DNA from: Cytophagales bacterium
GTDB taxonomy: Bacteria; Bacteroidota; Bacteroidia; Cytophagales; Cyclobacteriaceae
Length of the DNA stretch: 64,000 nucleotides
Assembly: GCA_025359125.1 (NCBI GenBank)
Contig: JANYHI010000046.1
Location: forward strand, 1 to 64,000
Direction of reading: 5' to 3'
This document shows positions 4,776 through 59,467 of this stretch, one piece after another. Made by a program: the position numbers and the translations under genes. The notes under the pieces were generated by a model. It made no database searches. It was not told the DNA's origin and saw only the letters and a program-made list of their open reading frames with translations. The first letter of the stretch is position 1. Each line of letters opens with the position of its first letter.

Positions 4776-4853
4776 GTTATCAGTTAATAGCTATTGGAAT
4801 CTTTGCTTATTGCGTTTATACCAATAACGATTAACCGATAACTAATAACGAAG
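4776..4853. repeat. GTT/AAC heptad palindrome (metG / EamA gap)
   Basis: An imperfect inverted repeat pairs 4776-4797 with 4821-4842, 19 of 22 positions complementary. The left arm reads in 7-base units beginning GTT or GCT (GTTATCA, GTTAATA, GCTATTG). The right side is four 7-base units beginning AAC, from 4826 to 4853 (AACGATT, AACCGAT, AACTAAT, AACGAAG). The last unit ends one base before the TTG start at 4855. It belongs to a family found at several other gene boundaries in this window. Confidence 0.8.
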
Positions 4854-4854
4854 T

Positions 4855-5724
4855 TTGATAAAGAAATCAAGTCTCTCCTACTTATCAACAGGCTTAGTAT
4901 TCGCTCTGCTATGGGCTTCGGCTTCAACTGCTGGCAAGTTTGGATTGAAATCTGTTGAGCCACTTACCTTTTTTACACTCCGGTTTTTGATGGCAGGAGT
5001 CATCCTGTTGGTTGTTGCACATCTAATTAATAAAGATTTGTTCCCGAAAGGAAAAGAGTGGTGGCATATTACCGTATTCGGATTATTCAACACCGCACTT
5101 TACTTAGGCATTTTTATTTTGGCGTTAAAATATGTGGCTGCTGGTATTACCACTATGGCCATCGCATTGAATCCTTTAATGATCAGCATTCTTTCATCCG
5201 TGATATTGAAGCGAAAAGTTTTATTTCGCGAATGGATAAGTATTGTGATGGGAATGGTGGGAGTGGGGATTGCAACCTTTCCCTTGATTCGATCAGGTCA
5301 CTCAACTGTGGGTGGAGTGTTGTTGATTATTCTTTGCATGTTGATGTACTCCATCGGGTCAGTGTATTATGCCTCCGTTAAATGGAAACTTCAGCGCATA
5401 ACTATAAACGGCTGGCAGGTTTTCATTGGAGGAATGCTGCTGCTGCCTTTTGCGTGGCTACTCCATCAGGATGTAAATAATTTTGATTTAAGATTCTGGC
5501 TTTCGCTAACTTGGTTAATTATTCCAGTTTCTATTATAGCAGTGCAACTATGGCTGCGCCTATTGAAAGATGATGCCGTGCGTGCCTCGCTTTGGCTTTT
5601 CCTTTGCCCCGTATTTGGGTTTGCCTACGCTACGTTTTTACTTGATGAACCTTTTACAATTCATACTGCAATTGGTGCAATCTTAGTAGTAGCTGCTCTT
5701 TATTTGGGGCAGATAAAAAAATAA
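4855..5724 (+). CDS. EamA (DMT) family transporter
   Basis: A hydrophobic 289-residue protein with about ten membrane segments arranged as two halves, the pattern of the EamA/RhaT drug-metabolite transporter superfamily. Typical family features are visible: an early WASASTAGKFGLK segment, a GVILLVVAHL helix, the repeat-unit end MVGVGIATFPLI, and a second half ending in AIGAILVVAALYLGQ. Members export amino acids, metabolites or drugs across the inner membrane; the substrate cannot be inferred. The start is TTG (4855), directly after a heptad palindrome. Convergent with smc. Confidence 0.88.
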   Translation: MIKKSSLSYLSTGLVFALLWASASTAGKFGLKSVEPLTFFTLRFLMAGVILLVVAHLINKDLFPKGKEWWHITVFGLFNTALYLGIFILALKYVAAGITTMAIALNPLMISILSSVILKRKVLFREWISIVMGMVGVGIATFPLIRSGHSTVGGVLLIILCMLMYSIGSVYYASVKWKLQRITINGWQVFIGGMLLLPFAWLLHQDVNNFDLRFWLSLTWLIIPVSIIAVQLWLRLLKDDAVRASLWLFLCPVFGFAYATFLLDEPFTIHTAIGAILVVAALYLGQIKK

Positions 5725-5783
5725 ATGGTTATTAATTAATTATCAGGTAATACATCACAGACAACTAATAACCATTAACTGCT
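5724..5783. repeat. GTT/AAC heptad palindrome between EamA gene and smc
   Basis: A perfect 11-bp inverted repeat (AATGGTTATTA at 5724-5734, its complement at 5766-5776) flanks about 31 bases. The right side is three 7-base AACnnnn units (AACTAAT, AACCATT, AACTGCT; 5763-5783), and the last overlaps the smc stop codon (5782-5784). It lies between two convergent genes and could also act as a transcription terminator, though no long T-run follows. Confidence 0.7.
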
Positions 5784-8700
5784 ATGCCAACTCTCTCAAG
5801 TCAACCGGCACAACTCTCGAAATTCCTTTTTCTACCATGGTAATTCCGTAGATCACATCAGTGGTTGTCATCGTGCGTTTGTTGTGCGTAACAATCACAA
5901 ACTGACTATCCTTACTAAAGCTGCGAATGATGTTGTTGAACTTGTCAATGTTGGCATCGTCCAAGGGTGCATCTACCTCATCGAAAATACAGAACGGTGC
6001 AGGCTTTAATAAATACATGGAGAAAAGTAGAGCTGTTGCTGTAAGCGTCTTCTCTCCACCCGAAAGTTGGTTGATGGTAAGGGGTCTCTTCCCTTTGGGC
6101 TTAGCAATAATGTCAATCTCAGAATCTAGTGGTTTACTAGGGTCAACGAGTTTCAAATCGCAATCATCACCTTCGTTGAATAGTGATCGGAATACTTTGA
6201 CAAAGTGTTCTTTGATTTGTTGAAATGCCTGCATAAACGTTTCGCTGGCAACTCCTTCAATTTCATTGATCGTGCTAAACAAAGATTCTTTTGCTTTCAA
6301 TAAATCTTCTTTCTGCGCGATGATAAAATCATTACGTTGTTTAATTTCATTGTACGCTTCCATTGCCATGGGATTGATCGGCCCCATGTTATCTAGCTTC
6401 TCGCGAATCTTGCTTACATCTGAACGAAGTTTCTCATCATCTGCTTTTTCGAAAATTTCTACTTCTTCAGGCGTTGGTTCGCCAATAACAGAATCTAAAT
6501 CAATATTAAACTCAACAGATAATCTTTCTTTTACAGAGTTCAATTGAAGTTTACTTTCGTTCAATTGATTTTGCAATTCCATCAAAATGGAATCAATGTT
6601 CTGGCGTTGATGTTGAGTTTCGCGTAAGTCTTTGTCGTACTGATCAATTTCTCCTCTTCCCGAATAATATTCTTTCTCCGCTTCGCTCAACCCTTTTTCC
6701 ATTTCATCTTTCTCGGTGTACATAGCAATCAAATCCACATCATTGCTCTGTGTAGTCTCGATGATGGTTTTTGCCTCTTCGTCATTCTTCTTCAGCTCTT
6801 CGGCATTCACATCAATGCGTAGTGTACTTTGCTCCATCGATTCTTGTTTGAATCGAATTTCCTGCTCCACACTTTTTACACGGTTCTCCTGTTGATGAAA
6901 GAAAATGTTTTGCTCATTAAAAGCTGCTGACTTCTGGCTTAGTAATTCGTTTTGTGTTGTCAGGTCAAGAACCAGCTTCTTTAATCTTTCGTCATGCTGT
7001 TTAGATTCAACAAATGCTAATTCTGATTTTGGCTTAATTTCTTCAATCTCTTTTGTTAGCGTATCTATTTTCTCCAGAATATCTTCTCTTCGTAAATCGG
7101 CACTGTTCAGCATGGTAGAGAATTGCTCTTGCTTGGTGCGAACAGAAATAGATTCATCATTCACCAACTTGATAGAATTTTGAGCTTCTTCAATTTGCTG
7201 CTTCAGTGTATTATTTCTAAGTCTCTCTAGCTCACGCTGACGATCCATTAAGGAATGGCGGATGTCATCCACTTTCTTAGTCAGGTCTTTGATCTCTTTA
7301 TCTAACTTCTCTAGATTTTTTGCACGGCCAATTTTCTTCCCTTCAAATAACCCAACCGAGCCGCCTGATAAACTGAATTTACGTTTGGTAATTTTTCCAT
7401 TCTTGGTGATAAATACAACATCGCCATCAGACGACATGGTTTTCACGTCTCCCTCTGCGATGTACACTTTATCTAAGATAAAAGACATCAGCTTCGTGTA
7501 CTTCGGATCGAACTCAATGATCTGCGTAGCAGGGAAAGCGTTGCTGTACATTTGAATAGGAGACGAGGAGAATTTCTCGAATGAATCCAAAATAAAAAAA
7601 TTCGCCTTTCCTTTGCTGGCATCACTTAAAATATTGATGGCTTCATAAGCTTCTGCTTCGTGCTCAACAATATAGTAATTGAGATAAGGCTCCAGATAAT
7701 TCTCAATCGATACACGATACTCTTCACTGGTAGAAAGAATGTCAGACAGGAGCGGAGCATTTTTAGTCCATCCTACATTTTTCTTTAAGAATTTGATGGC
7801 TTCCGGAAACCCCTCTAGGTTTTCAACTAACGATTTGGTAAGCTGATATTCATTTTGACGCGCATCTAACTTTCGGCCATGCTCCGTCATCTCATCGCGA
7901 ATCATTTCTATTGTCTTCTCCAGCGACCCGATGCGCTGAAAAGTATCTTCTTCTTCGCGTTTTAGTTTATCGAGATATGAATTTTTCTGGCTGATTTCGT
8001 CATTCAACAAAACAAGTTTCTTTTCAAACTCAGCAAGACTTGAACTTTGTTGGTTAGTGTCGGTTGTGGTGCGCTCTAGTTCCTGCGTGAAAGAAGAGAT
8101 TTGAATTTCACGAATCTCCAAATCTTTATTCAATTGAAAAGATTCTTCTTGCTTTGCGCGATGCGCTTGTCTTAATGCATCTGATTCTCCTTGTAACGTA
8201 TATGTGGCAGCTTTCTGAGCATCAAACTCACTACGCAAAGCTTCTACCTTATCGGATATTTCTTTTAAGATGCTGTGAGCTGATTCTTTTTCTGTTTCTA
8301 AGCTTTGAATGCTAAAGCGAGCGCGCTCATTACTTTTCTTGTCCTGATCAATTTGATCTTTTAAATTTAGAATCCGATCATTCAAAAAGCGAAGACGTTC
8401 ATTTTTAATCTGTTTGTCGCTTTCGTACTTTCTAATGTTTGAAACAAACTCATTAATCGCTTTTTGCCTGGAAGAAAGGGTTTTCTCTTTCAAGATCAAT
8501 TCCGATTTTGATTTCTCGATTAGTGCTTCTTTCTCCGCTATTTCAGCAGTCAGTTTTGTTTTACGATCGTTCTCTGATTCAGATTGTTTATTCAACACGC
8601 TGAATTTATCTTTTTGCTTATTCACCACTACTTTGGCGAGGTGAATGCTTTTCTCTTTATAGTCTTCTTTGATTTTATAATACTGCTCTGTTTGTTTTGC

Positions 8701-9324
8701 CTGTTTCTCAAGGCTCTTCATGTTTTTTTCAATCTCAAAAAGTAAATCTTCCACACGCTCTAAGTCTGCATCGGTATCTTCTAATTTTTTGAGTGTTTCT
8801 TTTTTACGCTTTTTAAATTTAGAAATTCCGGCAGCCTCTTCGAATAACATTCTTCTGGAGTTATCACGATCGTTTAGTAGATCGTCTACCATTCCTAATT
8901 CGATGATGGCATAACTGTTGGATGCAACGCCTGTATCTAAAAATAAATTCGTGATGTCTTTCAATCGGCAGGCAACTCCGTTCAAAAGATATTCGCTTTC
9001 ACCCGATCTGTAAAGTCTTCGTGTAATGGTGATTTGAGAATATTCTGTAGGTAGAATATTTTTTGTGTTATTAATCGTGAGGGAAACCTCGGCCATTTGT
9101 TGAGCAGATCGCTGGCTGGTGCCATTGAAAATGACGTTCTCCATCTTCTCTGACCGGAGCGCACTAGTTTTTTGTTCGCCCAATACCCATCTGATTGAAT
9201 CCACCACATTGGATTTACCACAACCATTTGGCCCAACAATTCCAGTAATCCCTTCGTCAAAATTGATTACGATTTTATCCGCAAAGCTTTTAAATCCTTT
9301 AATCTCCAGTTTCGATAATTGCAT
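5782..9324 (-). CDS. smc: chromosome segregation protein SMC
   Basis: SMC ATPase of the bacterial condensin, which organises and segregates the chromosome. The 1180 residues follow the SMC plan. The N-terminal ATPase half has Walker A GPNGCGKSN (about 32-40). A long coiled coil follows, then a hinge around 500-650 (FPEAIKFLKKNVGW, glycine-rich LSGGSVGLFEGKKIG), then a second coiled coil. The C-terminal half carries the ABC signature LSGGEKTLTATALL and Walker B CIFDEVDAPLDDANI. Length matches the family. ScpA and ScpB genes are not in this window. The gene stands alone, convergent with the transporter and divergent from the next gene. Confidence 0.97.
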   Translation of the reverse strand: MQLSKLEIKGFKSFADKIVINFDEGITGIVGPNGCGKSNVVDSIRWVLGEQKTSALRSEKMENVIFNGTSQRSAQQMAEVSLTINNTKNILPTEYSQITITRRLYRSGESEYLLNGVACRLKDITNLFLDTGVASNSYAIIELGMVDDLLNDRDNSRRMLFEEAAGISKFKKRKKETLKKLEDTDADLERVEDLLFEIEKNMKSLEKQAKQTEQYYKIKEDYKEKSIHLAKVVVNKQKDKFSVLNKQSESENDRKTKLTAEIAEKEALIEKSKSELILKEKTLSSRQKAINEFVSNIRKYESDKQIKNERLRFLNDRILNLKDQIDQDKKSNERARFSIQSLETEKESAHSILKEISDKVEALRSEFDAQKAATYTLQGESDALRQAHRAKQEESFQLNKDLEIREIQISSFTQELERTTTDTNQQSSSLAEFEKKLVLLNDEISQKNSYLDKLKREEEDTFQRIGSLEKTIEMIRDEMTEHGRKLDARQNEYQLTKSLVENLEGFPEAIKFLKKNVGWTKNAPLLSDILSTSEEYRVSIENYLEPYLNYYIVEHEAEAYEAINILSDASKGKANFFILDSFEKFSSSPIQMYSNAFPATQIIEFDPKYTKLMSFILDKVYIAEGDVKTMSSDGDVVFITKNGKITKRKFSLSGGSVGLFEGKKIGRAKNLEKLDKEIKDLTKKVDDIRHSLMDRQRELERLRNNTLKQQIEEAQNSIKLVNDESISVRTKQEQFSTMLNSADLRREDILEKIDTLTKEIEEIKPKSELAFVESKQHDERLKKLVLDLTTQNELLSQKSAAFNEQNIFFHQQENRVKSVEQEIRFKQESMEQSTLRIDVNAEELKKNDEEAKTIIETTQSNDVDLIAMYTEKDEMEKGLSEAEKEYYSGRGEIDQYDKDLRETQHQRQNIDSILMELQNQLNESKLQLNSVKERLSVEFNIDLDSVIGEPTPEEVEIFEKADDEKLRSDVSKIREKLDNMGPINPMAMEAYNEIKQRNDFIIAQKEDLLKAKESLFSTINEIEGVASETFMQAFQQIKEHFVKVFRSLFNEGDDCDLKLVDPSKPLDSEIDIIAKPKGKRPLTINQLSGGEKTLTATALLFSMYLLKPAPFCIFDEVDAPLDDANIDKFNNIIRSFSKDSQFVIVTHNKRTMTTTDVIYGITMVEKGISRVVPVDLRELA

Positions 9325-9454
9325 GAGTCGCTCGTATTAGTGGTTTTAAAAAAAATAAGACGGCAAAGATAACTTTCAACTTGGCATTTGGAAAGGCACC
9401 TATTCTCATTTCATACACATTTTATCCATGTCGAAATTTGGGGTGGAAAGTCAA

Positions 9455-9480
9455 TATTTTTGAAAAATTCAATATATTTG
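9455..9480 (+). promoter_or_regulatory. two candidate -7 elements upstream of the 173-aa gene
   Basis: Two exact TAnnTTTG matches precede the ATG at 9487: TATTTTTG at 9455-9462 and TATATTTG at 9473-9480. A TTTG at 9437-9440 is 14 bases before the first, shorter than the usual 19. The upstream copy is the more plausible promoter because the downstream one would leave almost no leader. Confidence 0.4.
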
Positions 9481-9486
9481 AGCTGA

Positions 9487-10008
9487 ATGGATAATATTCA
9501 ATTTTGGATTTGGCTGATCGTAATCGTGGTTACGTTTCTGGCAAGGGGTAAAAAGAAAAAACCTCAAGACGAGCCTACATCATATAATGAGCGGACGAAT
9601 ACCCCACCAGAATCCTCTAAACCCATTTCTTTTGAAGATTTGCTAAGAGAAATTCAATCTTCAAAGGTTCCAATGCCTGCTCCAATAATAGATAAGAAGC
9701 AAGAGTACATTGATTATGACGATGATTTAGAGGAAGAAGAGGCTGTTGTTGAGAAAGTAGATTACAGGCAACGAGATCAGGATAAAACTTTTGAAACGTA
9801 TGAGAAAGCGAAGCAAGCCGCCTTCAATCGTCCATCTTTAGAAGAAACCATGAAGGTGGAAGATACGGTAGTCAGGTTTGGACAGTTTAAAAGCTATGAG
9901 CAAGATAATCAGGTTATTCCGGCATTGGCTTATGTAAAGGATTTACAAAACCCTGAAGGTTTTAAGAAGGCATTTATACTGAGTGAAATACTGACACGAA
10001 AATTTTAA
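9487..10008 (+). CDS. hypothetical protein with an N-terminal membrane anchor
   Basis: The 173-residue product begins with one hydrophobic segment (IQFWIWLIVIVVTFLA), followed at once by a positive patch (RGKKKKPQ), which predicts a single anchor with the rest in the cytoplasm. The middle (about 70-115) is very acidic (YDDDLEEEEAVVEK) and likely disordered. The last ~50 residues (VKDLQNPEGFKKAFILSEILTRKF) look folded. This resembles small Bacteroidota anchored proteins of unknown function. No enzyme motif is visible. It is followed by a possible terminator. Confidence 0.75.
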   Translation: MDNIQFWIWLIVIVVTFLARGKKKKPQDEPTSYNERTNTPPESSKPISFEDLLREIQSSKVPMPAPIIDKKQEYIDYDDDLEEEEAVVEKVDYRQRDQDKTFETYEKAKQAAFNRPSLEETMKVEDTVVRFGQFKSYEQDNQVIPALAYVKDLQNPEGFKKAFILSEILTRKF

Positions 10009-10049
10009 AAGTCATTTTTTGATATAAATATTACTTAGATGGGTAAAGC

Positions 10050-10074
10050 CAGCTTTTCAAAAGGCTGATTTTTT
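10050..10074 (+). terminator. possible intrinsic terminator after the 173-aa gene
   Basis: CAGCTTTT is followed by AAAAGGCTG (one bulged G) and then a run of six Ts. The stem is short, so this is a modest candidate. Confidence 0.4.
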
Positions 10075-10169
10075 GGGAATAGCTCATCTTTACATGATTT
10101 ATTGGGTTACTATACTTTTTTGAGCATTATGTATAATGGATTGTTTTTGATTAACCAATAATTACTCGA

Positions 10170-10508: not shown

Positions 10509-10522
10509 CGAGAGAAAGTCAA

Positions 10523-16681: not shown

Positions 16682-16690
16682 TAAATTTAT

Positions 16691-16737
16691 AGGTTTAAGC
16701 TCAATTACTAACTCTGAACTTAAAACTTTGAACTTAA
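16691..16737. repeat. GTT/AAC heptad element between adhesin and acyl-CoA reductase genes
   Basis: Four consecutive AACnnnn units run from 16710 to 16737 (AACTCTG, AACTTAA, AACTTTG, AACTTAA). They pair imperfectly with GTTTAAG and its flanks on the left (16691-16703 against 16715-16727, 11 of 13 positions). The element covers the stop codon and the last codons of the reverse-strand gene ending at 16720, so the heptads encode its final residues. Confidence 0.65.
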
Positions 16738-17733
16738 AAATTCAACTGTGTCTACTTGGTCTGCGTAATCCCAAAGTTTAGGTAGTTGTGTGGTTCCGAA
16801 TGGAATACTTTCTTTAAGCCATCCCTTTGCAGAAGCAATGCATTGAATTTTATCTGTATGCATAGCAATTTTAGAACTCAAATCTTCTAATGATTGGTAA
16901 TACTCAAAATATAAAACTGAAATAGGTGAAACTAAGTTTTCACTTTCGAGGAGTAATAAAAATCCATTATCATAATAGTTGTCGCCATTCACCAAAAAAA
17001 TTGATTTACGGTAATCATAGTTATTCACGTATTTATTCTGGTGAATGATTTCTTTATACTGTTCAATTGGCTCCATCAGATTTTTGATTTCGTATCCGAT
17101 TGGAATATATATCTTAGAGATATTTCTACAACCCAGTCCGAAGTAGCTAAAAATATCTGATCCGAGTTTTATGATTTCAGTCGGATCTTCTGCTCCCATG
17201 ATTACTCCGCAAGACGACCTATTTTTGCGAATGATGTGTGGAATATTTCTAAAGTAATATTCAAAATAGCGCGATGTGTTATCACTTCCCGTTGCAATCA
17301 TCGCATCTATATTTTTCAGCCTTTCTTCAAACAAAATCTTGGTAGAGAATTCTTTATTGATTTTTTTTAATAACTCAGCAATGTATTGCATCAGTACAGT
17401 GTCTTGCGAACTTAGTTTTGCTACGAGTGTGTGCCCAGCAATCAATACACATAACATGTCGTGAAAACCAACCATCGGAATATTGCCGGCCATTGCTACG
17501 CCAATTCTCTTTTCTGACAATGATGATAAATCATAATTGCTTACCCATTGTTTGATGGATTCTGGCTGCAACATATAAGCGATCCCTTGAATGGATAAAA
17601 CAACTGATTCGTGTGTAAACCAAGGATTTTCGGATCTGGCTTTGTAACTAAGATCTTCTAATCCTACGCTTGTTAGATTCTTTAGTTGGCTTCCTAATTT
17701 CAAAAACGCTTCAATTCTCTCTTCTAAATTCAT
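16720..17733 (-). CDS. acyl-CoA reductase (LuxC family)
   Basis: 337 residues of the LuxC-type acyl-CoA reductase family, ALDH-superfamily enzymes that reduce acyl-CoA or acyl thioesters to aldehydes with NADPH. The active-site nucleophile is seen in FGLGCRNISKIY (Cys202). Other family features are the MAGNIPMVGFHDML segment near 80-93 and SSCGVIMGAEDPTEI in the cofactor region. There are no other lux genes, so luminescence is not implied; the substrate is probably a fatty acyl thioester used in lipid or pigment metabolism (inference). It is divergent from the ferredoxin gene, with 130 bases between them. The last codons overlap a heptad repeat, so its C terminus may vary between relatives. 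Confidence 0.85.
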   Translation of the reverse strand: MNLEERIEAFLKLGSQLKNLTSVGLEDLSYKARSENPWFTHESVVLSIQGIAYMLQPESIKQWVSNYDLSSLSEKRIGVAMAGNIPMVGFHDMLCVLIAGHTLVAKLSSQDTVLMQYIAELLKKINKEFSTKILFEERLKNIDAMIATGSDNTSRYFEYYFRNIPHIIRKNRSSCGVIMGAEDPTEIIKLGSDIFSYFGLGCRNISKIYIPIGYEIKNLMEPIEQYKEIIHQNKYVNNYDYRKSIFLVNGDNYYDNGFLLLLESENLVSPISVLYFEYYQSLEDLSSKIAMHTDKIQCIASAKGWLKESIPFGTTQLPKLWDYADQVDTVEFLSSKF

Positions 17734-17792
17734 TTATTGATATTTTGGGCACTTGTTTTAATTTCCTTAAACTTTTGAATACTAACCTGTGT

Positions 17793-28365: not shown

Positions 28366-28420
28366 ATTGGTTAATTGTTATCAGTTGATGGTAACATCTT
28401 ACTGATAATTATTAACTGAT
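28366..28420. repeat. GTT/AAC heptad palindrome after the sugar dehydrogenase gene
   Basis: Left arm 28366-28385 and right arm 28401-28420 are complementary at 16 of 20 positions around a 15-base loop. The left arm reads GTTAATT, GTTATCA, GTTGATG in 7-base steps from 28370. The right arm ends in AACTGAT. It sits between two convergent genes. Confidence 0.75.
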
Positions 28421-28427: not shown

Positions 28428-28928
28428 CTAGAAGTCATCAGCAATAGCTTCTATCTTCTTGCCTTTGTCGATGAACATCATTTTGCGAACGGGTACGCTT
28501 CGGTAGCTTAATTCTATTTTTTTCGGGTGGCCTTTATATACTAGACTTAGCGTATCGGTGGCGCGCCAATAAAAACGTTCATCGCGAATGCTGTAGATTG
28601 CTTTGCCATAAGATTTTTCTAAGGCTTTCATTATCTGCGGATCTTTTTCGGTACTCACCTTGATCTCATAAATCAATCCATTATAAACCTTTAATTCTAT
28701 TTCCTTTACGCTAACGGTTCCGATCTTATCATAATCGCGATGTTGTACTTCATACAACTTGGCAGGAAACTCCTTCAGTTCAATAAACTCTTTTTTGAAG
28801 ATCGCTCCCTTAATGCTGTCAACCGGATGGCCAAGTTTAATGTCTTTGAAGCCATTTCTTTTTGCTAATTCACTTTGCGCGTTTGATTGTAGAAATGAGA
28901 TTGCTAATAGTAAAATGACTAATCGCAT
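28428..28928 (-). CDS. small secreted protein of unknown function
   Basis: The ATG at 28928 gives a 166-residue product with a textbook signal peptide (MRLVILLLAISFLQSNAQ). A longer frame runs back to 29174, but that would overlap the deaminase gene by about 100 bases and lacks a signal sequence at its end, so the internal ATG is preferred. The mature part contains GFKDIKLGHPVDSIKG, a pattern common in Bacteroidota periplasmic proteins with a repeated beta domain, and then KIELSYRSVPVRKMMFIDKG. No known enzyme motif. Predicted periplasmic. It is divergent from the deaminase gene. Confidence 0.7.
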   Translation of the reverse strand: MRLVILLLAISFLQSNAQSELAKRNGFKDIKLGHPVDSIKGAIFKKEFIELKEFPAKLYEVQHRDYDKIGTVSVKEIELKVYNGLIYEIKVSTEKDPQIMKALEKSYGKAIYSIRDERFYWRATDTLSLVYKGHPKKIELSYRSVPVRKMMFIDKGKKIEAIADDF

Positions 28929-29068
28929 AGTATTATTTAAGTTCGGTGCATGAGTGAAAAATGTGTCACTGTTTTTATTTGCAAAAATCATCTCATTATC
29001 AATTGATAGCGAATATAAGAATTTGATTGCAATCTGTATTTTTACACATCTTGATAAATCCCTAACCC

Positions 29069-29557
29069 ATGCCTTCAATAAAACCTGCTTTTGATGATAT
29101 CTATATGGAGCTGGCCGTGAATTTAGCCAAGCGCTCTCATTGCATAAAGCGGCATGTGGGCGCGGTGCTAACAAAAGACACCCGAATTATCTCTATTGGA
29201 TATAATGGCCCCCCCTCGGGAACTCACAATTGCGATGAAGAATGGGCAGAGGTTGGTTGCCCCAGAGATTCTAAAGGTGGTTGCTCATTAGCCATTCATG
29301 CCGAGCAAAATGCAATATTGTATGCCGTAAAAAATAAAACCTCTGTAGATGGAGCAACTCTGTATGTTACACTGTCCCCTTGCTTGGCTTGTTCGCGAAT
29401 TATTTTTAGTATGGGTATTCGCAAAGTGATTTATTTGAACTCTTATGCTCAATTCAAAAACCTACCGACTGATGAAGGTGTTGACTTCCTAAATAAGTTT
29501 GGCGTAGAGTGTACCCGATATCACGGCACCATATCGAGTGTAACACATATGATCTAA
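29069..29557 (+). CDS. dCMP/cytidine deaminase family protein (ComEB-like)
   Basis: A 162-residue zinc deaminase. The catalytic motif is H77-A-E79 with the metal ligands Cys105 and Cys108 in SPCLACSRI. An N-terminal helix with KRHVGAVLTKD and a Cys-rich insert (NCDEEWAEVGCPRD, GGCSLAIHAEQ) matches the ComEB/dCMP deaminase group, which turns dCMP into dUMP to feed thymidylate synthase. thyA is in the same window but not adjacent. The insert cysteines suggest a second, structural zinc, as in T4 dCMP deaminase. Followed by a weak terminator. Confidence 0.92.
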   Translation: MPSIKPAFDDIYMELAVNLAKRSHCIKRHVGAVLTKDTRIISIGYNGPPSGTHNCDEEWAEVGCPRDSKGGCSLAIHAEQNAILYAVKNKTSVDGATLYVTLSPCLACSRIIFSMGIRKVIYLNSYAQFKNLPTDEGVDFLNKFGVECTRYHGTISSVTHMI

Positions 29558-46198: not shown

Positions 46199-46226
46199 TT
46201 ATTAAATTTTTCACCATGATCTAAAG

Positions 46227-47103: not shown

Positions 47104-47213
47104 TTGCTGTCACTTAAATCCTATTTTACGATTTGTAATAAATACCTAAGGATGGTGATAGAAATACCTCCGAACCACATCCTTTTTCATGTTTCTTGCG
47201 TTAGTTAGCCCGT

Positions 47214-47891: not shown

Positions 47892-47892
47892 T

Positions 47893-49350: not shown

Positions 49351-49362
49351 TACTTTTCACGA

Positions 49363-50745: not shown

Positions 50746-50749
50746 TTGA

Positions 50750-50806
50750 GTTACAGGTTCCCAGTTGCTGGTTGTACTAACAGGTAGCTGGTAACCGATA
50801 ACTATT
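50750..50806. repeat. GTT/AAC heptad palindrome between efflux adaptor gene and ppa
   Basis: The cleanest example of the family. The left arm has four 7-base units from 50750 (GTTACAG, GTTCCCA, GTTGCTG, GTTGTAC). The right side has four units from 50779 (AACAGGT, AGCTGGT, AACCGAT, AACTATT). Arms 50750-50773 and 50779-50802 are complementary at 16 of 24 positions around a 5-base loop. The period of exactly seven is kept on both sides. Confidence 0.85.
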
Positions 50807-50841
50807 TTTTTCTTCCTACCTTTCGTGTCTAATCTTACACT

Positions 50842-53035: not shown

Positions 53036-54302
53036 TTTCGTTAATGGAGCTAAATAAAAATCCGCTAATTACTTTTGGATAAAAATATGTTGACTTTTGT
53101 GGCATCGTAAACCCGCTAGCGCAAACTTGTTTTATTTCTTCAATACTTACCTCTTGGGTGATAACAGCCATTTGAGCTTCGTCTTGATGTACCTTCTCCA
53201 AGCAGGAAGAAAAATTTCTCTCAAATGAAATTTTCTCAGATTCTCTTTGATCTTTGCCGAGTATTCCAAAAATCTTTTCGATGATGAAATAGTGAAGTAC
53301 AGTCAAATCAAGATTTTTAATTTCTTGCGGAAAGTGCCAGGTTATTTTATTTATGGATGCTGGCTTCAATCTTACTTTTAACGAATGATTTTTTAAGATG
53401 ATTCCGAAAGCCCACTTTTTGCCCATGATAATTTCATTGAGTGTGTCAGCATTTTCAAATACTTTCACATCAAAGTCGATTTCTAATTTTTTAATTACCT
53501 CTTTCTCACTAAAATTCTTAATTCCATGAATGAGCCGATGCGTTGGTAAAATTCGCAAATCGCCTGCTTCAGTGTTTGTCAAATACATTAAATGATAATT
53601 GTATCCTTCCTTACCAGTATGATTTGGATTTCGTGTTGCGTATTTTTCTTTCAGCACTAACGAACTTTCATATCGGTGATGACCGTCTGCTAAAATTATT
53701 TTAACAGGATCAATTAAATCAATAAAGCATTGAATAATCTTGGCATCCTGAATCACAGCCAACACATCTCGCACTCCTTGGTAATCTTCCGTTTCGTAAA
53801 GGGGAGTTTGAATAACCTCGTCCATGTACTTTTCCAATTCGAAGTTTGGATCCGTATAAAGTCCATGTGTTGGGCTTGCATGCAATTCCGTTTGCTCTAA
53901 TAATTCAATGCGATCATTTACAGATTTCGGAATAGTGTTTTCATGTCGAAGGATAACATTCTCTTTCCAATCGTAAGCTCGGATATGACAAACAAAACCT
54001 TTGCGACAATATTCTTTTGGCGAGCCCGCTAATTTAAAATATTGATAGTAGACGTAAATGCCGGGTATTACATCTTGTTCCAAAATCCCATTTCTCTTCC
54101 AGCTATCGAGTAATTGTTTTGCTTTTGCCGCGGGGTTTGATCCTTGCGGAACAGAGAGGTGTATTGAGTTGTATGGACTCTCATATAATTTTTGCCGTTG
54201 CTTATCAGACACTACATCAAAGAGTGGTGCGGTTAGTTCTTCAATTTTGTTTGCCAATGATGAGTTGTAGCGCCAGGCACGAATGGGTTTTATTTCGGCC
54301 AT
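53001..54302 (-). CDS. DUF1015 family protein
   Basis: From the preferred ATG at 54302 the product is 433 residues and begins MAEIKPIRAWRYN, the family-typical start, two bases after the accC stop. An upstream in-frame ATG at 54326 overlaps accC and is less likely. Family blocks seen: SPYNSIHLSVPQGSNPAAKA, ADGHHRYESSLVLKEKYA (conserved HHRYE) and YHLMYLTNTEAGDLRILPTHR. DUF1015 proteins are widespread, cytoplasmic and biochemically uncharacterised; some lie near 3-phosphoglycerate dehydrogenase genes. Here it follows accC in the same direction. Confidence 0.9.
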   Translation of the reverse strand: MAEIKPIRAWRYNSSLANKIEELTAPLFDVVSDKQRQKLYESPYNSIHLSVPQGSNPAAKAKQLLDSWKRNGILEQDVIPGIYVYYQYFKLAGSPKEYCRKGFVCHIRAYDWKENVILRHENTIPKSVNDRIELLEQTELHASPTHGLYTDPNFELEKYMDEVIQTPLYETEDYQGVRDVLAVIQDAKIIQCFIDLIDPVKIILADGHHRYESSLVLKEKYATRNPNHTGKEGYNYHLMYLTNTEAGDLRILPTHRLIHGIKNFSEKEVIKKLEIDFDVKVFENADTLNEIIMGKKWAFGIILKNHSLKVRLKPASINKITWHFPQEIKNLDLTVLHYFIIEKIFGILGKDQRESEKISFERNFSSCLEKVHQDEAQMAVITQEVSIEEIKQVCASGFTMPQKSTYFYPKVISGFLFSSINESEFQSLPYSRF

Positions 54303-54304
54303 CG

Positions 54305-55795
54305 TTACAATCTGTTTTTTTTCCAATTGCTTTCATTACCTATAGTTGCAGTTGCCTTAGAAGTATCAATTGTTGATGCTGAGAATGAAACCGCCAGCGC
54401 GGCAGCTAATTTTTCTACTTCAAGATCTTGTTCGCCCAATAAATATTCGGGCTTAAAATAATTTTCTATAAAACGCGTGTTGAAATTTCCAGAGCGGAAT
54501 GCTTCATGCATCATCACAAACTTACCAAAGCCGAGTGTTGTTTCTACACCCGTTATTTCGTAATCATTAATTGCGCGAATCATTTTGTCCATCGCAAGTT
54601 CTCTCGTTTCTGCATACACGATCAGCTTAGCAATAAGCGGATCATATTGAACGGGTATCGTCATGCCTTCTTCAAAGCCATCATCTACTCTTACACCATG
54701 GCCTTGTGGCCTGCGATAGGTTTTTAGCGTTCCAATGTCTGGTAAAAAGTTATTGCTTGGATCTTCGGCACAAACGCGCACCTCAATGGCGTGGCCGCGT
54801 ATGGTAAGTTGCTGTTGAGTAAAAGGCAGTTTTTCTCCTTCTGCTACTTTGATCTGAAGTTTTACCAGATCTAGTCCAGTGATTAGTTCAGTAACCGGAT
54901 GTTCTACCTGAAGGCGAGTATTCATTTCTAAAAAATAGAAACTCATGTCTTCATCTAAAATAAATTCGATAGTGCCTGCGTTATAATAATTCGCAGCCTT
55001 TGCAGCATTTACGGCAGCTTCACCCATTTTTTTTCTTAGCTCGGGAGTTAGAACCGGTGAAGGTGCTTCTTCTACAACTTTCTGATGTCTGCGTTGAATA
55101 GAACATTCTCTGTCAAATAAATGAACCACATTGCCATGCTGATCTCCAAATACTTGAAACTCGATGTGCCTTGGTTTAGCAATATATTTTTCGATAAAGA
55201 CAGCGCCATCTCCGAATGAAGCCGTTGCTTCACTAATGGCGCGTTCCATCTGACTCTGAAATTCATTTTCATTTTCTACCACACGCATTCCTTTTCCACC
55301 ACCACCAGCACTAGCCTTAATTAATATTGGGTAGCCTATTTTTTTGGCGACTGCTTTTGCTTCATCCACATTCGTGATGGGTGTGCTTGTACCCGGAACC
55401 AACGGCACGTTAAATTTAGCGACCGCTTCTTTGGCGGCAAGTTTACTTCCCATCACCCGCATCGAATCGCCTGAAGGGCCAACGAAAATAATTTCTTCTT
55501 TATTTACGAGGTCAGCAAAGTCCTCATTCTCTGAAAGGAAGCCATAGCCAGGATGGATGGCATTGGCACCGGATTTTTTTGCCACCTCAATGATTTTATC
55601 CATTCTAAGATAAGATTCAGAAGAAGGTGCAGGTCCAATGCAATAGGCTTCATCGGCAAACTTTACGTGCATGGCATTTCTATCAATCTCGCTGTAGACG
55701 GCTACAGTTTGAATTCCCATCTCTTTTGCGCTACGCATAATGCGTAAGGCAATCTCTCCACGATTGGCGATCAGTAATTTTTTAATTTTTGGCAT
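54305..55795 (-). CDS. accC: biotin carboxylase subunit (acetyl/acyl-CoA carboxylase)
   Basis: A 496-residue ATP-grasp biotin carboxylase. It has KLLIANRGEIALRIMRSAKE at the start, HPGYGFLSENEDFA, ASAGGGGKGMRVV (glycine-rich ATP loop), EKYIAKPRHIEFQVFGD and EMNTRLQVEHPVTELITG with the catalytic Glu/Arg. It is about 45 residues longer at the C terminus than E. coli AccC and lacks a fused biotin-carrier domain, so it needs a separate carrier protein. It could serve acetyl-CoA or a propionyl/methylcrotonyl-CoA carboxylase. The carrier and carboxyltransferase genes are not adjacent. Neighbouring 50-residue ORF is upstream on the same strand. Confidence 0.93.
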   Translation of the reverse strand: MPKIKKLLIANRGEIALRIMRSAKEMGIQTVAVYSEIDRNAMHVKFADEAYCIGPAPSSESYLRMDKIIEVAKKSGANAIHPGYGFLSENEDFADLVNKEEIIFVGPSGDSMRVMGSKLAAKEAVAKFNVPLVPGTSTPITNVDEAKAVAKKIGYPILIKASAGGGGKGMRVVENENEFQSQMERAISEATASFGDGAVFIEKYIAKPRHIEFQVFGDQHGNVVHLFDRECSIQRRHQKVVEEAPSPVLTPELRKKMGEAAVNAAKAANYYNAGTIEFILDEDMSFYFLEMNTRLQVEHPVTELITGLDLVKLQIKVAEGEKLPFTQQQLTIRGHAIEVRVCAEDPSNNFLPDIGTLKTYRRPQGHGVRVDDGFEEGMTIPVQYDPLIAKLIVYAETRELAMDKMIRAINDYEITGVETTLGFGKFVMMHEAFRSGNFNTRFIENYFKPEYLLGEQDLEVEKLAAALAVSFSASTIDTSKATATIGNESNWKKNRL

Positions 55796-55817
55796 TTAGT
55801 CGCAATTCAATTAGTTT

Positions 55818-55970
55818 TTAATTCTGTTGATCTAATCTTTTTGAATGCTCTTTAAATTGTTTTGCGTGTTCTATCAAAATAGCATGTGTTGATTTCAATT
55901 CGTCACTTGTTTGGTCGGTCTTTTTTAGGTACTCGGCCAATGACTCTATAATCCTATCTTCATTCTTCAT
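55818..55970 (-). CDS. small hypothetical protein (50 aa)
   Basis: A reverse-strand ATG frame (55970) ending in TAA (55818-55820). The product is charged and helical (NEDRIIESLAEYLKKTDQ, then KEHSKRLDQ), with no hydrophobic segment, so it should be a soluble coiled-coil-like protein. It lies 22 bases upstream of accC, fitting an operon leader gene. It occupies about half of the gap 55796-56125. No family is recognised. Confidence 0.5.
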   Translation of the reverse strand: MKNEDRIIESLAEYLKKTDQTSDELKSTHAILIEHAKQFKEHSKRLDQQN

Positions 55971-56074
55971 ATCATGAATCTATTTTACTGCAATTTATTA
56001 CTTTTTGGACACCGCCCCAGCCTCAAAATTCTTGCTAAATGAATTGCCGACTAATTCTTACTTGATTTTTTCAT

Positions 56075-56082
56075 TATTTTTG
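56075..56082 (+). promoter_or_regulatory. -7 element of the SPT-like gene
   Basis: TATTTTTG is an exact TAnnTTTG match 43 bases before the ATG. The correct distance for a -33 TTTG upstream is not occupied by a clean copy. Confidence 0.5.
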
Positions 56083-56125
56083 CGCCTGATTTATAAAACC
56101 GTCTTTTAGCTATTGAAAGCTTAAG

Positions 56126-57412
56126 ATGGAATCATCAAACAACAAAACGAAAAAAATAATGGTCGATTTATTTGAAAAACTGCGAATGGAAGAAGGCCCG
56201 CTGGCCAAATACTCTCACTTACCAGATGATTATTTCTTTTTCCCCAAGTTGGAGGGGGAGATAGGCCCACGCATGAAATTTAATGGAAAGACCGTTTTGA
56301 ACTGGAGTTTGAACAATTATTTAGGACTGGCCAACCATCCTGAAGTACGTAAGGCCGATACAGATGCGACTGAACAATATGGCTTGGCTGCGCCTATGGG
56401 AGCCCGCATGATGTCGGGGAATTCAGTCAACCACTTACTTTTTGAAAAGCAATTGGCAGAATTCGTAAAGAAAGAAGATGTCATGTTATTGAATTATGGC
56501 TACCAAGGTGTGCTTTCAATTATCGATGCTATCGTTAACAGAAAAGATGTAATCGTTTATGATTCAGAATCACATGCTTGTATTATAGATGGAGTTCGTT
56601 TGCACATGGGTAAGCGCTTTGTGTACCCACACAACAACATGGAAAATTTGGAGAAGCAGCTTCAGCGTGCTACCAAGTTAGCAAACGAAACAGGTGGAGG
56701 TATTCTAGTAATTACCGAAGGCGTTTTTGGTATGTCAGGCAACATGGGAGATTTGAAAGGCATTGTTGAACTGAAGAAGAAATACAATTTTAGATTATTA
56801 GTTGATGATGCACACGGCTTTGGAACAATGGGAGACACAGGCGCAGGAGTAGGCGAGGAGCAAGGCGTGCAAGATCAGATAGATTTATACTTCTCTACTT
56901 TTGCAAAGTCGATGGCGAGCATTGGTGCCTTTGTGGCGGGCGATAAAAAAATATTAAAATTCTTACGTTATTCCGTTCGTTCTCAGATTTACGCGAAGAG
57001 CCTGCCAATGCCATTGGTTGTTGGTGGCATGAAGCGTTTAGAGCTCGTAAAGAAACATCCAGAATATAGAGAGAACCTTAAAAAGATAATGGCTGCTATT
57101 AAAGGTGGATTATCTGACAGAGGCTTTGCCATTAATAAAACTCAAACTCCTCCAACCCCAGTATTATTTAAAGGGGGCGTAGGTGAGGCCGCTAACATGT
57201 CAATGGATTTGCGCGAAAATTATGGCATTTTCTGCTCTGTAGTGATCTATCCGGTTGTTCCTAAGGATGTTATCATGTTTAGAATTATACCTACTGCTTC
57301 GCATACTATGTCTGATGTGGAGGAGACTTTAACAGCCTTTTCTGCTCTAAAAACTAAGCTAGATAATGGTTTTTATAAGACAGAATCCCTTGTTTCTGTT
57401 ACTAAATTTTAA
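56126..57412 (+). CDS. alpha-oxoamine synthase, serine palmitoyltransferase-like
   Basis: A 428-residue PLP-dependent aminotransferase-fold enzyme. The PLP-binding Lys261 is in STFAKSMASIG, the aspartate of the cofactor site in LLVDDAHGFG (Asp227/228, His230), and His150 stacks on PLP (VYDSESHACI). NNYLGLANHPEVRK and GARMMSGNSVNHLLFEKQLA are class II alpha-oxoamine synthase blocks. It could be serine palmitoyltransferase, which starts sphingolipid synthesis in Bacteroidota, or glycine C-acetyltransferase. The long N-terminal extension (about 45 residues before the fold) and FPKLEGEIGPRM favour the SPT-like group; other lipid genes are absent here. Confidence 0.82.
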   Translation: MESSNNKTKKIMVDLFEKLRMEEGPLAKYSHLPDDYFFFPKLEGEIGPRMKFNGKTVLNWSLNNYLGLANHPEVRKADTDATEQYGLAAPMGARMMSGNSVNHLLFEKQLAEFVKKEDVMLLNYGYQGVLSIIDAIVNRKDVIVYDSESHACIIDGVRLHMGKRFVYPHNNMENLEKQLQRATKLANETGGGILVITEGVFGMSGNMGDLKGIVELKKKYNFRLLVDDAHGFGTMGDTGAGVGEEQGVQDQIDLYFSTFAKSMASIGAFVAGDKKILKFLRYSVRSQIYAKSLPMPLVVGGMKRLELVKKHPEYRENLKKIMAAIKGGLSDRGFAINKTQTPPTPVLFKGGVGEAANMSMDLRENYGIFCSVVIYPVVPKDVIMFRIIPTASHTMSDVEETLTAFSALKTKLDNGFYKTESLVSVTKF

Positions 57413-57500
57413 ATAAAATGGGTTTTTGATGTTTTTTAAAGGTTTTTAGCTAATTTGGCATTAATAAAGAAACACTCAATAAACTAAACATAACATAACA

Positions 57501-57683
57501 ATGAAAAGATTCGAAGAATTAAAGGCTTTGATCGCCTCTCTGGAGGGTGATGCTGACAAGTTTTATAACAAAGCAAATAGCGCAGCAGGAACGCGGGTTA
57601 GAAAAGGAATGCAAGACCTAAAGAATATTGCTCAAGCAATACGCGCGGAAGTTCAGGACTTAAAAAATAAAGAGGCTAAATAA
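57501..57683 (+). CDS. histone H1-like (Hc1) small protein
   Basis: A 60-residue protein: MKRFEELKALIASLEGDADKF begins the Bacteroidota Hc1/histone-H1-like group, with GTRVRKGMQDLKNIAQAIR as its second, conserved helix. It is mostly helical, with conserved Lys/Arg, and should bind DNA or RNA and help compact the nucleoid (inference from the family). It is followed by a strong bidirectional terminator that also ends the small basic-protein gene on the other strand. Confidence 0.85.
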   Translation: MKRFEELKALIASLEGDADKFYNKANSAAGTRVRKGMQDLKNIAQAIRAEVQDLKNKEAK

Positions 57684-57700
57684 TTTTAGCGGAAAGAAAA

Positions 57701-57729
57701 AAAAAGGGACTTAAAAAGTCCCTTTTTTT
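57701..57729. terminator. bidirectional intrinsic terminator
   Basis: GGGACT and AGTCCC (57706-57711 and 57717-57722) form the core stem around a TAAAA loop, flanked by A-runs on the left and T-runs on the right, so it works on both strands. It separates the convergent Hc1 and 49-residue basic-protein genes. Confidence 0.85.
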
Positions 57730-57877
57730 ATGCGCTTTTCTTAAAGCTCTTCTTAATTTCTTCGATATCAACCGCCTTGGCAACTGGTTTAAAGCCCTGA
57801 GTCTTCAAAGCTGTTCTTCTACGAGCTGACTTAGCTTTGTCTTTGCGATTCTTTCTTTTTAGTCTGGTTACTGACAT
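57728..57877 (-). CDS. small basic protein, conserved in Bacteroidota type
   Basis: A 49-residue product from ATG at 57877: MSVTRLKRKNRKDKAKSARR, then RTALKTQGFKPVAKAVDIEE and KKSFKKSA. The N-terminal half is very basic and the C-terminal half is a short helix. A longer in-frame start at 57925 would add a cysteine-containing piece that does not fit. The composition suggests RNA or ribosome binding (inference). Terminator shared with the Hc1 gene. Confidence 0.7.
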   Translation of the reverse strand: MSVTRLKRKNRKDKAKSARRRTALKTQGFKPVAKAVDIEEIKKSFKKSA

Positions 57878-57941
57878 GGTGTTGTTTGTTAAAAACGAGG
57901 GGCAAAAATAAGGATCATTTTCCATAATCCAAGTCTAAAGT

Positions 57942-58020
57942 GGTTTCTCATCGCTAGTTTCTTATCACATATTGCTAAAACCCTGTGGCGCCATCTGGTA
58001 ACTAGCCACTGAAAACCGTA
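57942..58020. repeat. GTT/AAC heptad palindrome upstream of hisS
   Basis: Arms 57942-57959 and 58000-58017 are complementary at 13 of 18 positions. The right arm reads AACTAGC, CACTGAA, AACCGTA in 7-base steps (58000-58020). The left arm carries GTTTCTC and GTTTCTT two periods apart. It ends 20 bases before the hisS ATG. Confidence 0.6.
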
Positions 58021-58039
58021 GATTTGGCGGTTTATAACA

Positions 58040-59410
58040 ATGGAAAAACCAAGTTTACCTAAAGGCACTCGCGACTTCGGCCCAGCGCAAATGGCTAAGC
58101 GTCAGTTTATTTTCGGCAACATAAAAAAAGTGTTTCAGAAATATGGCTTTCAGCCACTCGAAACTCCTGCCATGGAAAACCTTACCACCCTTACGGGGAA
58201 ATATGGGGAAGAGGGCGATCAGTTGTTGTTTAAGATTTTGAACTCTGGCGATTATCTTAAGGATGTAGAGGTAAGTAAACTAGAAACTAGAAGCTCGAAA
58301 CTGGTAACTTTTGATATCTCCGAAAAAGGTCTTCGCTACGACCTCACCGTTCCATTCGCGCGCTATGTAGTGATGAACCGCCACGAAATTACTTTTCCGT
58401 TTAAGCGCTATCAAATTCAACCCGTGTGGCGGGCAGATCGTCCACAGAAAGGAAGATATAGAGAATTTTATCAATGCGATGCAGACGTGGTAGGCACGGA
58501 CTCATTGATTTGTGAAGCCGACATTGTGTTGATGATCAAAGAAGTTTTTCAGTCTTTGGGAATTTTAGATTACACAATCAAAATCAATCACCGTGCAATT
58601 CTTTCTGGCTTAGCCGAATTAACGGGCACAGAAAATGAATCTTCTTTGTTTATTGCTATTGATAAGCTAGATAAGATTGGCGAAGAGAAAGTAAAAGAAG
58701 AGTTACGCTCGCGCGGATTTGAAGACAATGGCATTGATGCCGTTTTTCACATTTTAAATTTTAAAGGCACAACACAACAAAAAATAAATTTTCTTACCGA
58801 ACGTTTTTCAAATTCGGAAAAAGGAAAAAAGGGAGTTGCAGATTTTAAAGAAGTTTTGAATTTGCTCCAACACTATGGAGCAAGCCACGACAAAATTGAA
58901 TTTGATATTTCGCTGGCACGCGGATTAAGTTATTACACGGGCTGCATCTTCGAAGTAAAAATTAATAATGTTGCCATCGGTAGTGTTAGTGGTGGCGGTC
59001 GTTATGATAACTTAACTGGGGTATTTGGTTTGCCCGATGTTTCGGGAGTAGGAATTTCCTTTGGTGTAGATCGATTGTATGATGCCATGGAAGAACTGAA
59101 ATGCTTTCCTGAAGAGACGCAGATTTCCAGCAAAGTTATGATTGCGCATTTAGATGAAAGTAATTTTAACTATTCGCTCGGTGTAGCATATCAATTGCGC
59201 AATAACGGAATTGCTACAGAAGTATACCCAGAGGTAACTAAAATTAAAAAGCAATTGGATTATGCAAACAAGAAGATGATTCCATTTGTAATTGTAATTG
59301 GTAGCGATGAACAGAAGTCCGGTCTCTTATCTTTTAAAGACATGAAGAAAGGAGAGCAGCAGCAGATTTTAATTATGGATATTATTAAGTTGTTAGTTGC
59401 TAGTTGCTAG
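58040..59410 (+). CDS. hisS: histidyl-tRNA synthetase
   Basis: A 456-residue class II synthetase that charges tRNA-His. Motif 1 is in the YGFQPLETPAMEN region, motif 2 in PVWRADRPQKGRYREFYQCD, the HisA loop in ARGLSYYTGCIFEV, and motif 3 in GVGISFGVDRL. The C-terminal anticodon domain ends KSGLLSFKDMKKG. Two oddities: a loop at about 80-91 (KLETRSSKLVT) is encoded by AACnnnn heptads (58278-58309), and the last five residues (LLVASC) are encoded by a heptad arm overlapping the stop. The enzyme's essential motifs are all present. Confidence 0.96.
   Translation: MEKPSLPKGTRDFGPAQMAKRQFIFGNIKKVFQKYGFQPLETPAMENLTTLTGKYGEEGDQLLFKILNSGDYLKDVEVSKLETRSSKLVTFDISEKGLRYDLTVPFARYVVMNRHEITFPFKRYQIQPVWRADRPQKGRYREFYQCDADVVGTDSLICEADIVLMIKEVFQSLGILDYTIKINHRAILSGLAELTGTENESSLFIAIDKLDKIGEEKVKEELRSRGFEDNGIDAVFHILNFKGTTQQKINFLTERFSNSEKGKKGVADFKEVLNLLQHYGASHDKIEFDISLARGLSYYTGCIFEVKINNVAIGSVSGGGRYDNLTGVFGLPDVSGVGISFGVDRLYDAMEELKCFPEETQISSKVMIAHLDESNFNYSLGVAYQLRNNGIATEVYPEVTKIKKQLDYANKKMIPFVIVIGSDEQKSGLLSFKDMKKGEQQQILIMDIIKLLVASC
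58278..58309 (+). repeat. in-frame AACnnnn heptads inside hisS
   Basis: Four full 7-base units and part of a fifth are read in frame as protein: AACTAGA twice, AGCTCGA, AACTGGT, then AACT. They resemble the right arms of the palindromes at gene boundaries but have no opposing GTT arm nearby. They encode a loop that varies in length among Bacteroidota HisRS (from memory), so the insertion is likely tolerated. Confidence 0.65.
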
Positions 59411-59467
59411 TTATTGGTACATTAAACTACGAAGCAGCAGACTAACAACCACCAACTAACAACTAAT
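59388..59467. repeat. GTT/AAC heptad palindrome across the hisS end and up to hutH
   Basis: A perfect 12-bp inverted repeat (59388-59399 and 59453-59464), extending to 21 of 24 positions (59388-59411 and 59441-59464). The left side is four units from 59389 (GTTGTTA, GTTGCTA, GTTGCTA, GTTATTG); the right side ends AACTAAC, AACTAAT at 59467. The left arm is the end of the hisS coding region including its stop, and the right arm ends at the base before the TTG start of hutH. Confidence 0.85.

Follow-up and report, generated by a model that had tools for sequence, protein, structure and literature searches.

What kind of element would leave the same seven-base rhythm, and not the same sequence, at the boundaries of genes without an evident function in common? 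The question is raised by the window analysed here, bases 1-64000 of contig 36 in the 3.68 Mb, 87-contig genome of a Cytophagales bacterium, in which a preliminary description had placed seven intergenic sites between 4776 and 59467, each drawn as an imperfect hairpin with a left arm stepping in GTT heptads and a right arm stepping in AAC heptads. We find that the rhythm is real and is shared by related genomes, that its unit is a GTTA core followed by three freer bases, and that the hairpin is a by-product of two independent rows of units facing each other across a gap. Below, G numbers denote genomes, G000 being that of the window, and L numbers denote loci or stretches. The own-genome sample, chosen without regard to the repeat, comprises 464 kb (the window plus L091-L110). 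Relatives were fetched through a 1180-aa protein of the window, called SMC-like from our own reading of its sequence, and not through the repeat; the best 80 of its 203 matches come from Cytophagales/Cyclobacteriaceae and similar metagenome-assembled genomes and isolates, the closest at 94% (L111).

In the 464 kb sample the gaps (42.9 kb) hold 15 matches to the pattern GTTAnnnGTTAnnnGTTA, which is GTTA thrice at 7-base steps, and the coding sequence (415 kb) holds none, bearing out the location at gene boundaries that had been described, and the same core thrice at spacing 6 or 8 is absent from this sample. The whole genome has 54 matches; reversing the pattern leaves 5 and widening the spacing to 8 bases leaves none, the excess that had been anticipated. 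GTT pairs are commonest in the gaps of the sample at lags 7, 14 and 21 (38, 23 and 20), every other lag between 3 and 20 giving 4-13, and no peak appears in its coding sequence; it is the rhythm that recurs rather than one sequence. In an unbiased scan of every 3- and 4-mer GTTA came out on top (21 lag-7 pairs against a mean of 1.0), followed by GTT and TAAC. The rhythm also appears at different sites in related genomes, as had been proposed: across 570 gaps of the 80 relatives 4-mer identity at lags 7, 14 and 21 reaches 1076, 1073 and 892, against 537-857 elsewhere, and the top 3-mer for the lag signal is again AAC/GTT. Strong inverted repeats in relatives' gaps, taken at a score of 11 or more and an arm of 18 or more, show identities of 0.406 at lag 7 and 0.395 at lag 14, with 0.24-0.35 at the other lags from 3 to 15. 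The preliminary description had suggested counting facing runs against shuffled sequence, and here the answer depends on the core. In the window alone 3 facing places stand against an average of 0.33 over 40 shuffles, the highest of which also reached 3; the excess is only suggestive, and a loose GTT-only facing pattern in the other 400 kb of own-genome sample discriminates poorly (8, 5 and 4 inward and 2, 0 and 1 outward matches at steps 7, 6 and 8). With the fuller GTTA core the rhythm is far beyond chance.

Heptads adjoining a GTT....GTT seed in own-genome gaps (34 loci or stretches) have G at 0.62-0.67, T at 0.60-0.66, T at 0.59-0.68 and A at 0.59, with no base above 0.51 at the three positions that follow; seeds at spacing 6 or 8 in the same gaps have no comparable core. 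The many freer spacers in 124 arrays include ATA, ATC and TCA (58, 56 and 38 units), and rows, defined as at least three units, run to as many as 8. The free bases of adjacent units are less alike than in shuffled order (0.396 against 0.422, standard deviation 0.008; 125 arrays) and those of units two apart are more alike (0.464 against 0.421), so the rows are not simply copied from neighbour to neighbour. A separate case of such alternation is L015/L256 on contig 24 of G000, where GTTACTA, GTTAAGG, GTTACTA and GTTAATG follow one another, the first unit being repeated exactly two steps on with a 14-base super-period.

The rows have a fixed inward order. Matches to GTTAnnnGTTA and TAACnnnTAAC separated by 12-42 bases, which may overlap and hence exceed the number of sites, amount to 25, 17, 12, 11, 18, 16, 41 and 2 in G000, G003, G005, G012, G015, G045, G051 and G052, against 0, 0, 0, 0, 0, 1, 3 and 0 in the opposite order. 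Among 31 arrays picked without regard to their partner, from the own genome and part of G012, 20 have a facing partner, 3 a weak one, 8 none and 0 an outward one, and the order does not depend on gene orientation. The reversed-pattern control (ATTGnnn) gives 0-1 alongside these counts in seven genomes and 4 in G052, exceeding that genome's own 2. This control may match another unit family, TTGAC rows being present in L069 and L147, and its high counts in G054 (405) and G027 (51) are therefore not clean noise; the second control, 8-base spacing, is unusable in genomes with 8-base units.

The two arms of a site are independent. Compared within a genome, whole elements pair with their own arms at 13.84 (51 elements) and with swapped arms at 13.72 (272; p 0.34), and the free bases 5-7 at 0.411 and 0.420. 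Unit position 4 has a small cognate excess (0.844 against 0.824, reached in 18 of 500 shuffles) and the best register gives 0.652 against 0.633 (51 of 500). An apparent cognate excess in a genome-pooled test (0.507 against 0.463; 0 of 1000 shuffles) is gone from the free bases once each genome is taken separately, and matched strings alone yield none. The imperfect hairpin, presented earlier as the conserved structure, is therefore rejected as such and is a by-product. Tandem-gap elements have 13 G-U and 22 A-C mismatches, against 82 and 53 in other inverted repeats; the corresponding counts of 29 and 13 in convergent and 2 and 14 in divergent gaps are on an arbitrary reading strand and count orthologues repeatedly. 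Nor are the sites copies of one another: the longest exact words shared within a genome by 39 inter-arm pieces from five genomes have 8 bases, and there are five of these where 1.45 are expected, so that whole elements were not copied, and as the sites of a genome have only unit and step in common, the pattern must be imposed in trans.

All seven sequences first reported are present in the window, none of them assigned a strand, and the strict facing pattern, at least two GTTnnnn opposite at least two nnnnAAC, holds for three; three others have one good arm and one is weak, so that the claim of a single shared structure survives in part. Facing arrays at 4776..4853, in the tandem gap between methionyl-tRNA synthetase and an EamA transporter, set GTTATCA, GTTAATA and (GCTATTG) opposite four nnnTAAC heptads. 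Those at 50750..50806, in the tandem gap between an HlyD-like gene and inorganic pyrophosphatase, read GTTACAG, GTTCCCA, GTTGCTG, GTTG and then TGGTAAC, CGATAAC. Those at 59388..59467, in the tandem gap between histidyl-tRNA synthetase and an aromatic amino acid lyase, set GTTGTTA, GTTGCTA, GTTGCTA and GTTATTG opposite three nnnnAAC, the left array beginning ahead of the synthetase stop codon. The other four were judged by eye. The facing arrays at 5724..5783 span the entire convergent gap between the EamA transporter and the SMC-like protein, with two AAC heptads on the right and a degenerate left arm holding one GTT. A one-sided array at 16691..16737 lies in a convergent gap ahead of the end of gene 16720-17733 (three AACs in 7-base steps and one GTT). 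A left array at 28366..28420 (GTTAATT, GTTATCA, GTTGATG, with a degenerate right arm holding one clean AAC) lies in the convergent gap following a GSDH/DUF7133 gene, and the open reading frame opposite, 28428-29174, has no Pfam match. The array at 57942..58020, 5' of histidyl-tRNA synthetase, is weak, its GTTs being 14 apart. Pfam results for ten flanking proteins, including tRNA synthetases, the EamA transporter, inorganic pyrophosphatase and aromatic amino acid lyase, reveal no evident common function, and Rfam at gathering score has 0 matches in the window.

By the open reading frame list four of the seven gaps are tandem, three convergent and none divergent. Within the unselected sample, three GTTs at 7-base steps turn up in 8 of its 28 convergent gaps, in 10 of the 151 tandem ones and in 1 of the 52 divergent ones; for step 6 the three counts are 0, 0 and 2, and for step 8 they are 0, 2 and 1. 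From a partial listing of 48 elements in five genomes, 46 could be placed (one was not found and one lay at a contig edge): 28 are tandem, 13 convergent and 5 divergent. The median distance from the beginning of a row to the nearby codon in these 46 is 3 bp for stops and 10 bp for starts, in agreement with the reported closeness to codons; the gaps have a median of 82.5 bp, and the ends comprise 54 on the stop side and 38 on the start side. The preliminary description had also placed the elements between divergent genes and argued from this that they are not just terminators; that argument fails because no window site is divergent and divergent gaps are the poorest. The placement fits either gene 3' ends or promoter avoidance.

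Orthologous junctions show how the rows change. The EamA/SMC junction holds a GTTA element in G000, TTCAAGG/CTTGAAC heptads in L111, L114, L123 and L160, and a canonical T-tailed terminator-like hairpin in place of heptad rows in L112 and L113. At one junction the right arms have, counted by eye, 9, 6 and 4 units in L114, L160 and L123. At the junction before EamA, where the window has its 4776 site, the gap of L112 is short, and TTCTAAx heptads are found in L114 and L123. On the 5' side of SMC, again by eye, L114, L123 and L160 have five GTTnnnn opposite four units, three of which end in AAC, and no such rows are seen in G000, L111, L112 or L113. Rows of GTTnnnn 5' of histidyl-tRNA synthetase are kept in G065, G025 and G070 (L064, L065, L075), where they are clearer than in the window. 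Between these rows lies about 150 bp of G+C-rich sequence in G065 (L064) and none in G025 (L065), as if the middle of the element gains or loses a piece. Among close pairs arrays differ in length by 14 bp (L160 and L123), 21 bp (L114 and L160) and 21 bp (L034 and L038), and by 6 bp, not 7, in the 97% identical L131/L133. Orthologues that could be aligned give a mixed picture, with an identical array (L272/L263), one with an altered left edge (L197/L259) and the 21-bp indel of L034/L038; arrays have been rewritten between L064 and L065 and between L267 and L273. In an alignment only 77% identical, L147 has, and L144 lacks, a 57-bp stretch whose facing arms are of TTGAC type.

A recent burst in G012 was considered from its 68 matches against 8 in G072 (91% at L062/L063) and is not claimed, because some matches belong to a different repeat family and most orthologous stretches are unmatched. 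That family occurs in L267 (1347, 6977, 13529) and L268 (13674, 15895, 17681) in copies some 2-7 kb apart, each beginning with a similar C-rich stretch, followed by TAACCATTAACGATTAAC or something close to it and then by a stretch resembling GGGAAGAACGAG. Parts of it match many short contigs of G072, and it looks like the boundaries of a cassette-type array.

Within the phylum the GTTA pattern has at least one match in 108 of 198 genomes at a 7-base step and in 66 at an 8-base step. Two congeners are set apart by the step: the matches of G214 number 108 at step 7 and none at step 8, whereas G106 has 0 and 22. Of 112 gaps in 257 kb of G214 sampled without regard to the repeat, 10 have a lag-7 signal, with several unit sequences, and 2 have a lag-8 signal; of 35 gaps in about 99 kb of G106, most of it (at least three of five stretches) picked for octad matches, 6 show lag 8 and none shows lag 7. 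Within one genus, then, G214 is mainly 7-base and G106 8-base, across several unit sequences, as if a trans-acting factor sets the step. G214 also has long homogeneous 7-base arrays, in several unit sequences, beside genes (L344, L347, L355, L360, L363), that in L344 reaching 31 units. In G112, stretches chosen for their matches (L328, L329, L330) have inward-facing GTTAATnn octads beside lag-7 repeats of another sequence. Named relatives hold, by eye, elements of other units as well, including 6- and 8-base ones, and copy number is uneven between relatives. In the cultured relative Chryseotalea sanaruensis, locus L182 carries rows of AGTTGTT. L149 (gap from 13537) and L152 (gap from 17048) have strong inverted repeats of 6-base units after a gene, and L118 and L159 have 8-base units, so the step is not always seven; these too were seen by eye.

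From these features we infer that the rows may be recognition sites, read by a protein, read as DNA, and serving as a boundary. A site would consist of two independent rows, one from each flanking gene end, both aimed at the middle of the gap, each row presenting a recognition core (GTTA here) regularly every 7 bp, the three bases that separate successive cores being freer. An array-forming protein would bind one core per unit and stack along the double-stranded DNA, as omega does on its 7-bp repeats, and the coated stretch would form a two-way boundary, a roadblock or an insulator, chiefly at gene 3' ends. Rows would grow and shrink mostly by whole units, and unit sequence and length would drift with the protein. 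Such a reading fits because of the core with its freer spacer, the rigid step, the fixed order, the independent arms and the unlike neighbours; it is nevertheless tentative, and we give the same standing to the view that the rows are a by-product of repeat formation, placing recognition ahead of it because it covers the arrays of the own genome better. Extending the recognition reading into a phylum-wide class of boundary elements, with facing rows of 4-base cores at step 7 (8 in some species), species-specific units rewritten in place and an undescribed array-forming reader separating transcription units, is a bolder proposal that we consider unlikely. Two narrower candidates were dropped: the RRM protein RbpB as the reader, no GUUA motif appearing in passages of PMC11697453 and PMC12119571, and stop codons in three frames (TAA every 7 bases) as the purpose, other units putting no stop in the same arm by eye.

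Several results weigh against reading by a protein. No reader was identified in this analysis. The unit sequence at a given junction differs in relatives whose SMC is 89-94% identical. Three orthologous array pairs show changes at 8 of 45 core and 18 of 60 spacer positions (p 0.18), a difference short of significance that does not demonstrate selection on the core. The unlikeness of neighbouring units is owed to G000 and G003, with little of it in G015 and none in G005 or G012. The homogeneous arrays of G214, with the 31 units of L344, look like plain slippage products, and several unit sequences coexist at one step in a single genome (by eye in the own genome, and in G214), a situation that would call either for several proteins or for a step determined by a factor other than sequence. 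The step and unit data of G214 and G106 lowered our confidence slightly. These same data suit the equally probable non-functional account, in which heptamer minisatellites are seeded at gene ends by DNA-end repair or replication template switching, a few units being copied from arrays elsewhere, grown by slippage and tolerated in promoter-free gaps, and in which the inward order would follow from extension of the two broken 3' ends with one and the same strand. The several unit sequences of G214 at one step while G106 uses lag 8, the long homogeneous arrays, the turnover of unit sequence, the whole-unit indels of 14 and 21 bp, the differing right arms of L114, L160 and L123, and the scarcity of arrays in divergent gaps all favour it, as does the composition of the 5' arms, in which G outnumbers C for 23 heptad elements out of 28, the split among other inverted repeats being 65 to 61, orthologues included. 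Slippage alone, however, gives neither a core with a freer spacer, nor unlike neighbours, nor the inward order; the 6-bp change of L131/L133 means that not every change is a whole unit, and the sharing of no word beyond 8 bases between inter-arm pieces means that whole elements are uncopied.

An RNA hairpin that would terminate transcription or stabilise the 3' end is a less probable explanation than either. It draws on the T-tailed hairpin that holds the same junction in L112 and L113, on the enrichment of arrays in convergent gaps, and on folding, in which six of the seven window sites do better than shuffles (z -2.0 to -7.0; 16691, at z -0.35, has no stable fold). Facing GTTA/TAAC rows must fold, however, which accounts for those six, and neither the pairing of own against swapped arms nor the balance of G-U and A-C mismatches in tandem gaps is that of a selected RNA stem. 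Terminator-like signals, of a G+C-rich stem and a T run, are found in 3 of 17 convergent array gaps against 11 of 35 others, 3 of 48 tandem against 31 of 235, and 1 of 6 divergent against 3 of 77, at loci partly chosen for arrays; their being somewhat rarer beside arrays in convergent and tandem gaps counts in favour of the hairpin. The arrays do not have the make-up of an intrinsic terminator: by eye no T run follows the arm in the listed elements, and a terminator scan of 4700-5900 gave two hits, neither inside the 4776 or 5724 element. A telomerase-like reverse transcriptase adding repeats to both 3' ends of breaks would explain the inward order, the independent arms, the species-specific units and the single step per genome, and DRT10 is reported to show that bacterial reverse transcriptases are able to make tandem-repeat DNA (PMC12632851). 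We regard it as highly improbable, because 7 of 15 genomes searched, including G000, have no match to RVT_1 (PF00078), a search that very divergent enzymes could escape; four of these seven, G000, G214, G205 and G251, hold 54, 108, 105 and 74 pattern matches, and freer spacer bases misfit a single template. Equally remote is the copying of miniature mobile elements of REP or MITE type by a transposase: the palindromic look, the location in gaps and at gene 3' ends, the uneven copy number between relatives and the 57-bp stretch of L147 recall such elements, but near-identical copies were not found, inter-arm pieces are unalike, and the one placed gain, 5' of SMC, lacks clean edges by eye.

Should a protein read the rows, bacterial genes would have between them a boundary element of a new kind; should the rows be no more than repeats, the fixed inward order and the 7-to-8 difference between congeners would point to an undescribed mutational process. 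Either way, the same junctions with different units offer a comparative system.

Degenerate tandem heptamers in gaps are known from cyanobacteria as STRR, with a consensus that differs from the GTTA units. The ribbon-helix-helix protein omega (ParB of pSM19035), as described in PMC9499535, has as its targets non-palindromic 7-bp sites that follow one another in rows, directly or inverted, each taking up one dimer, and in this the arrays resemble its targets; omega, however, belongs to a plasmid partition system whose WATCACW sites overlap promoters, whereas the arrays are rare in divergent, promoter-bearing gaps and their reader is putative. REP elements (GTAG/CGTC) are likewise short intergenic palindromes, many per genome and often 3' of genes, but according to PMC3733652 they form stem-loop sequence families with a tag, served in the GTAG case by a RAYT transposase, whereas the arrays share no element sequence and no arm pairing beyond the common unit. 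Facing rows, core-spacer degeneracy, 3'-end placement, unit swaps at the same junctions and a 7/8 difference were not found in the literature searched, most subscription journals lying outside it. The preliminary description had left open whether the class was already described: intergenic heptamer direct repeats are known as a kind, the facing form, which has no Rfam match in the window, is not described in that literature, and two accounts of its mechanism are equally probable. The closest known system is the TAACTGA intergenic heptamer direct repeats of Beggiatoaceae, Cyanobacteria and five Bacteroidetes (MacGregor 2015, PMC4679880). As described there, they resemble the arrays in their 7-base unit, their TAAC core (reverse complement TCAGTTA), their intergenic location beside start codons, a reversed set after a stop in Flexibacter, an uneven distribution among relatives, and mostly 7-nt indels between two close Cyanothece strains, like the steps of 14, 21 and 21 bp (with one 6-bp exception) found here. 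That report describes one exact heptamer in direct order, with one inverted set among 170 in the main genome and most sets before start codons, Microcystis being mixed with 8 of 24 sampled sets between stops. In the 124 arrays here the TCA of the exact unit is one spacer triplet of many (38 units), and a forward orientation just 5' of starts is not the rule, stop-side ends numbering 54 to 38 and 13 of the 46 gaps, being convergent, having no start codon at all. In place of one exact direct repeat, the arrays described here combine a degenerate core with a freer spacer, mostly face each other, lie mostly at gene 3' ends, use many unit sequences in one lineage and, in some genomes, step by eight bases.

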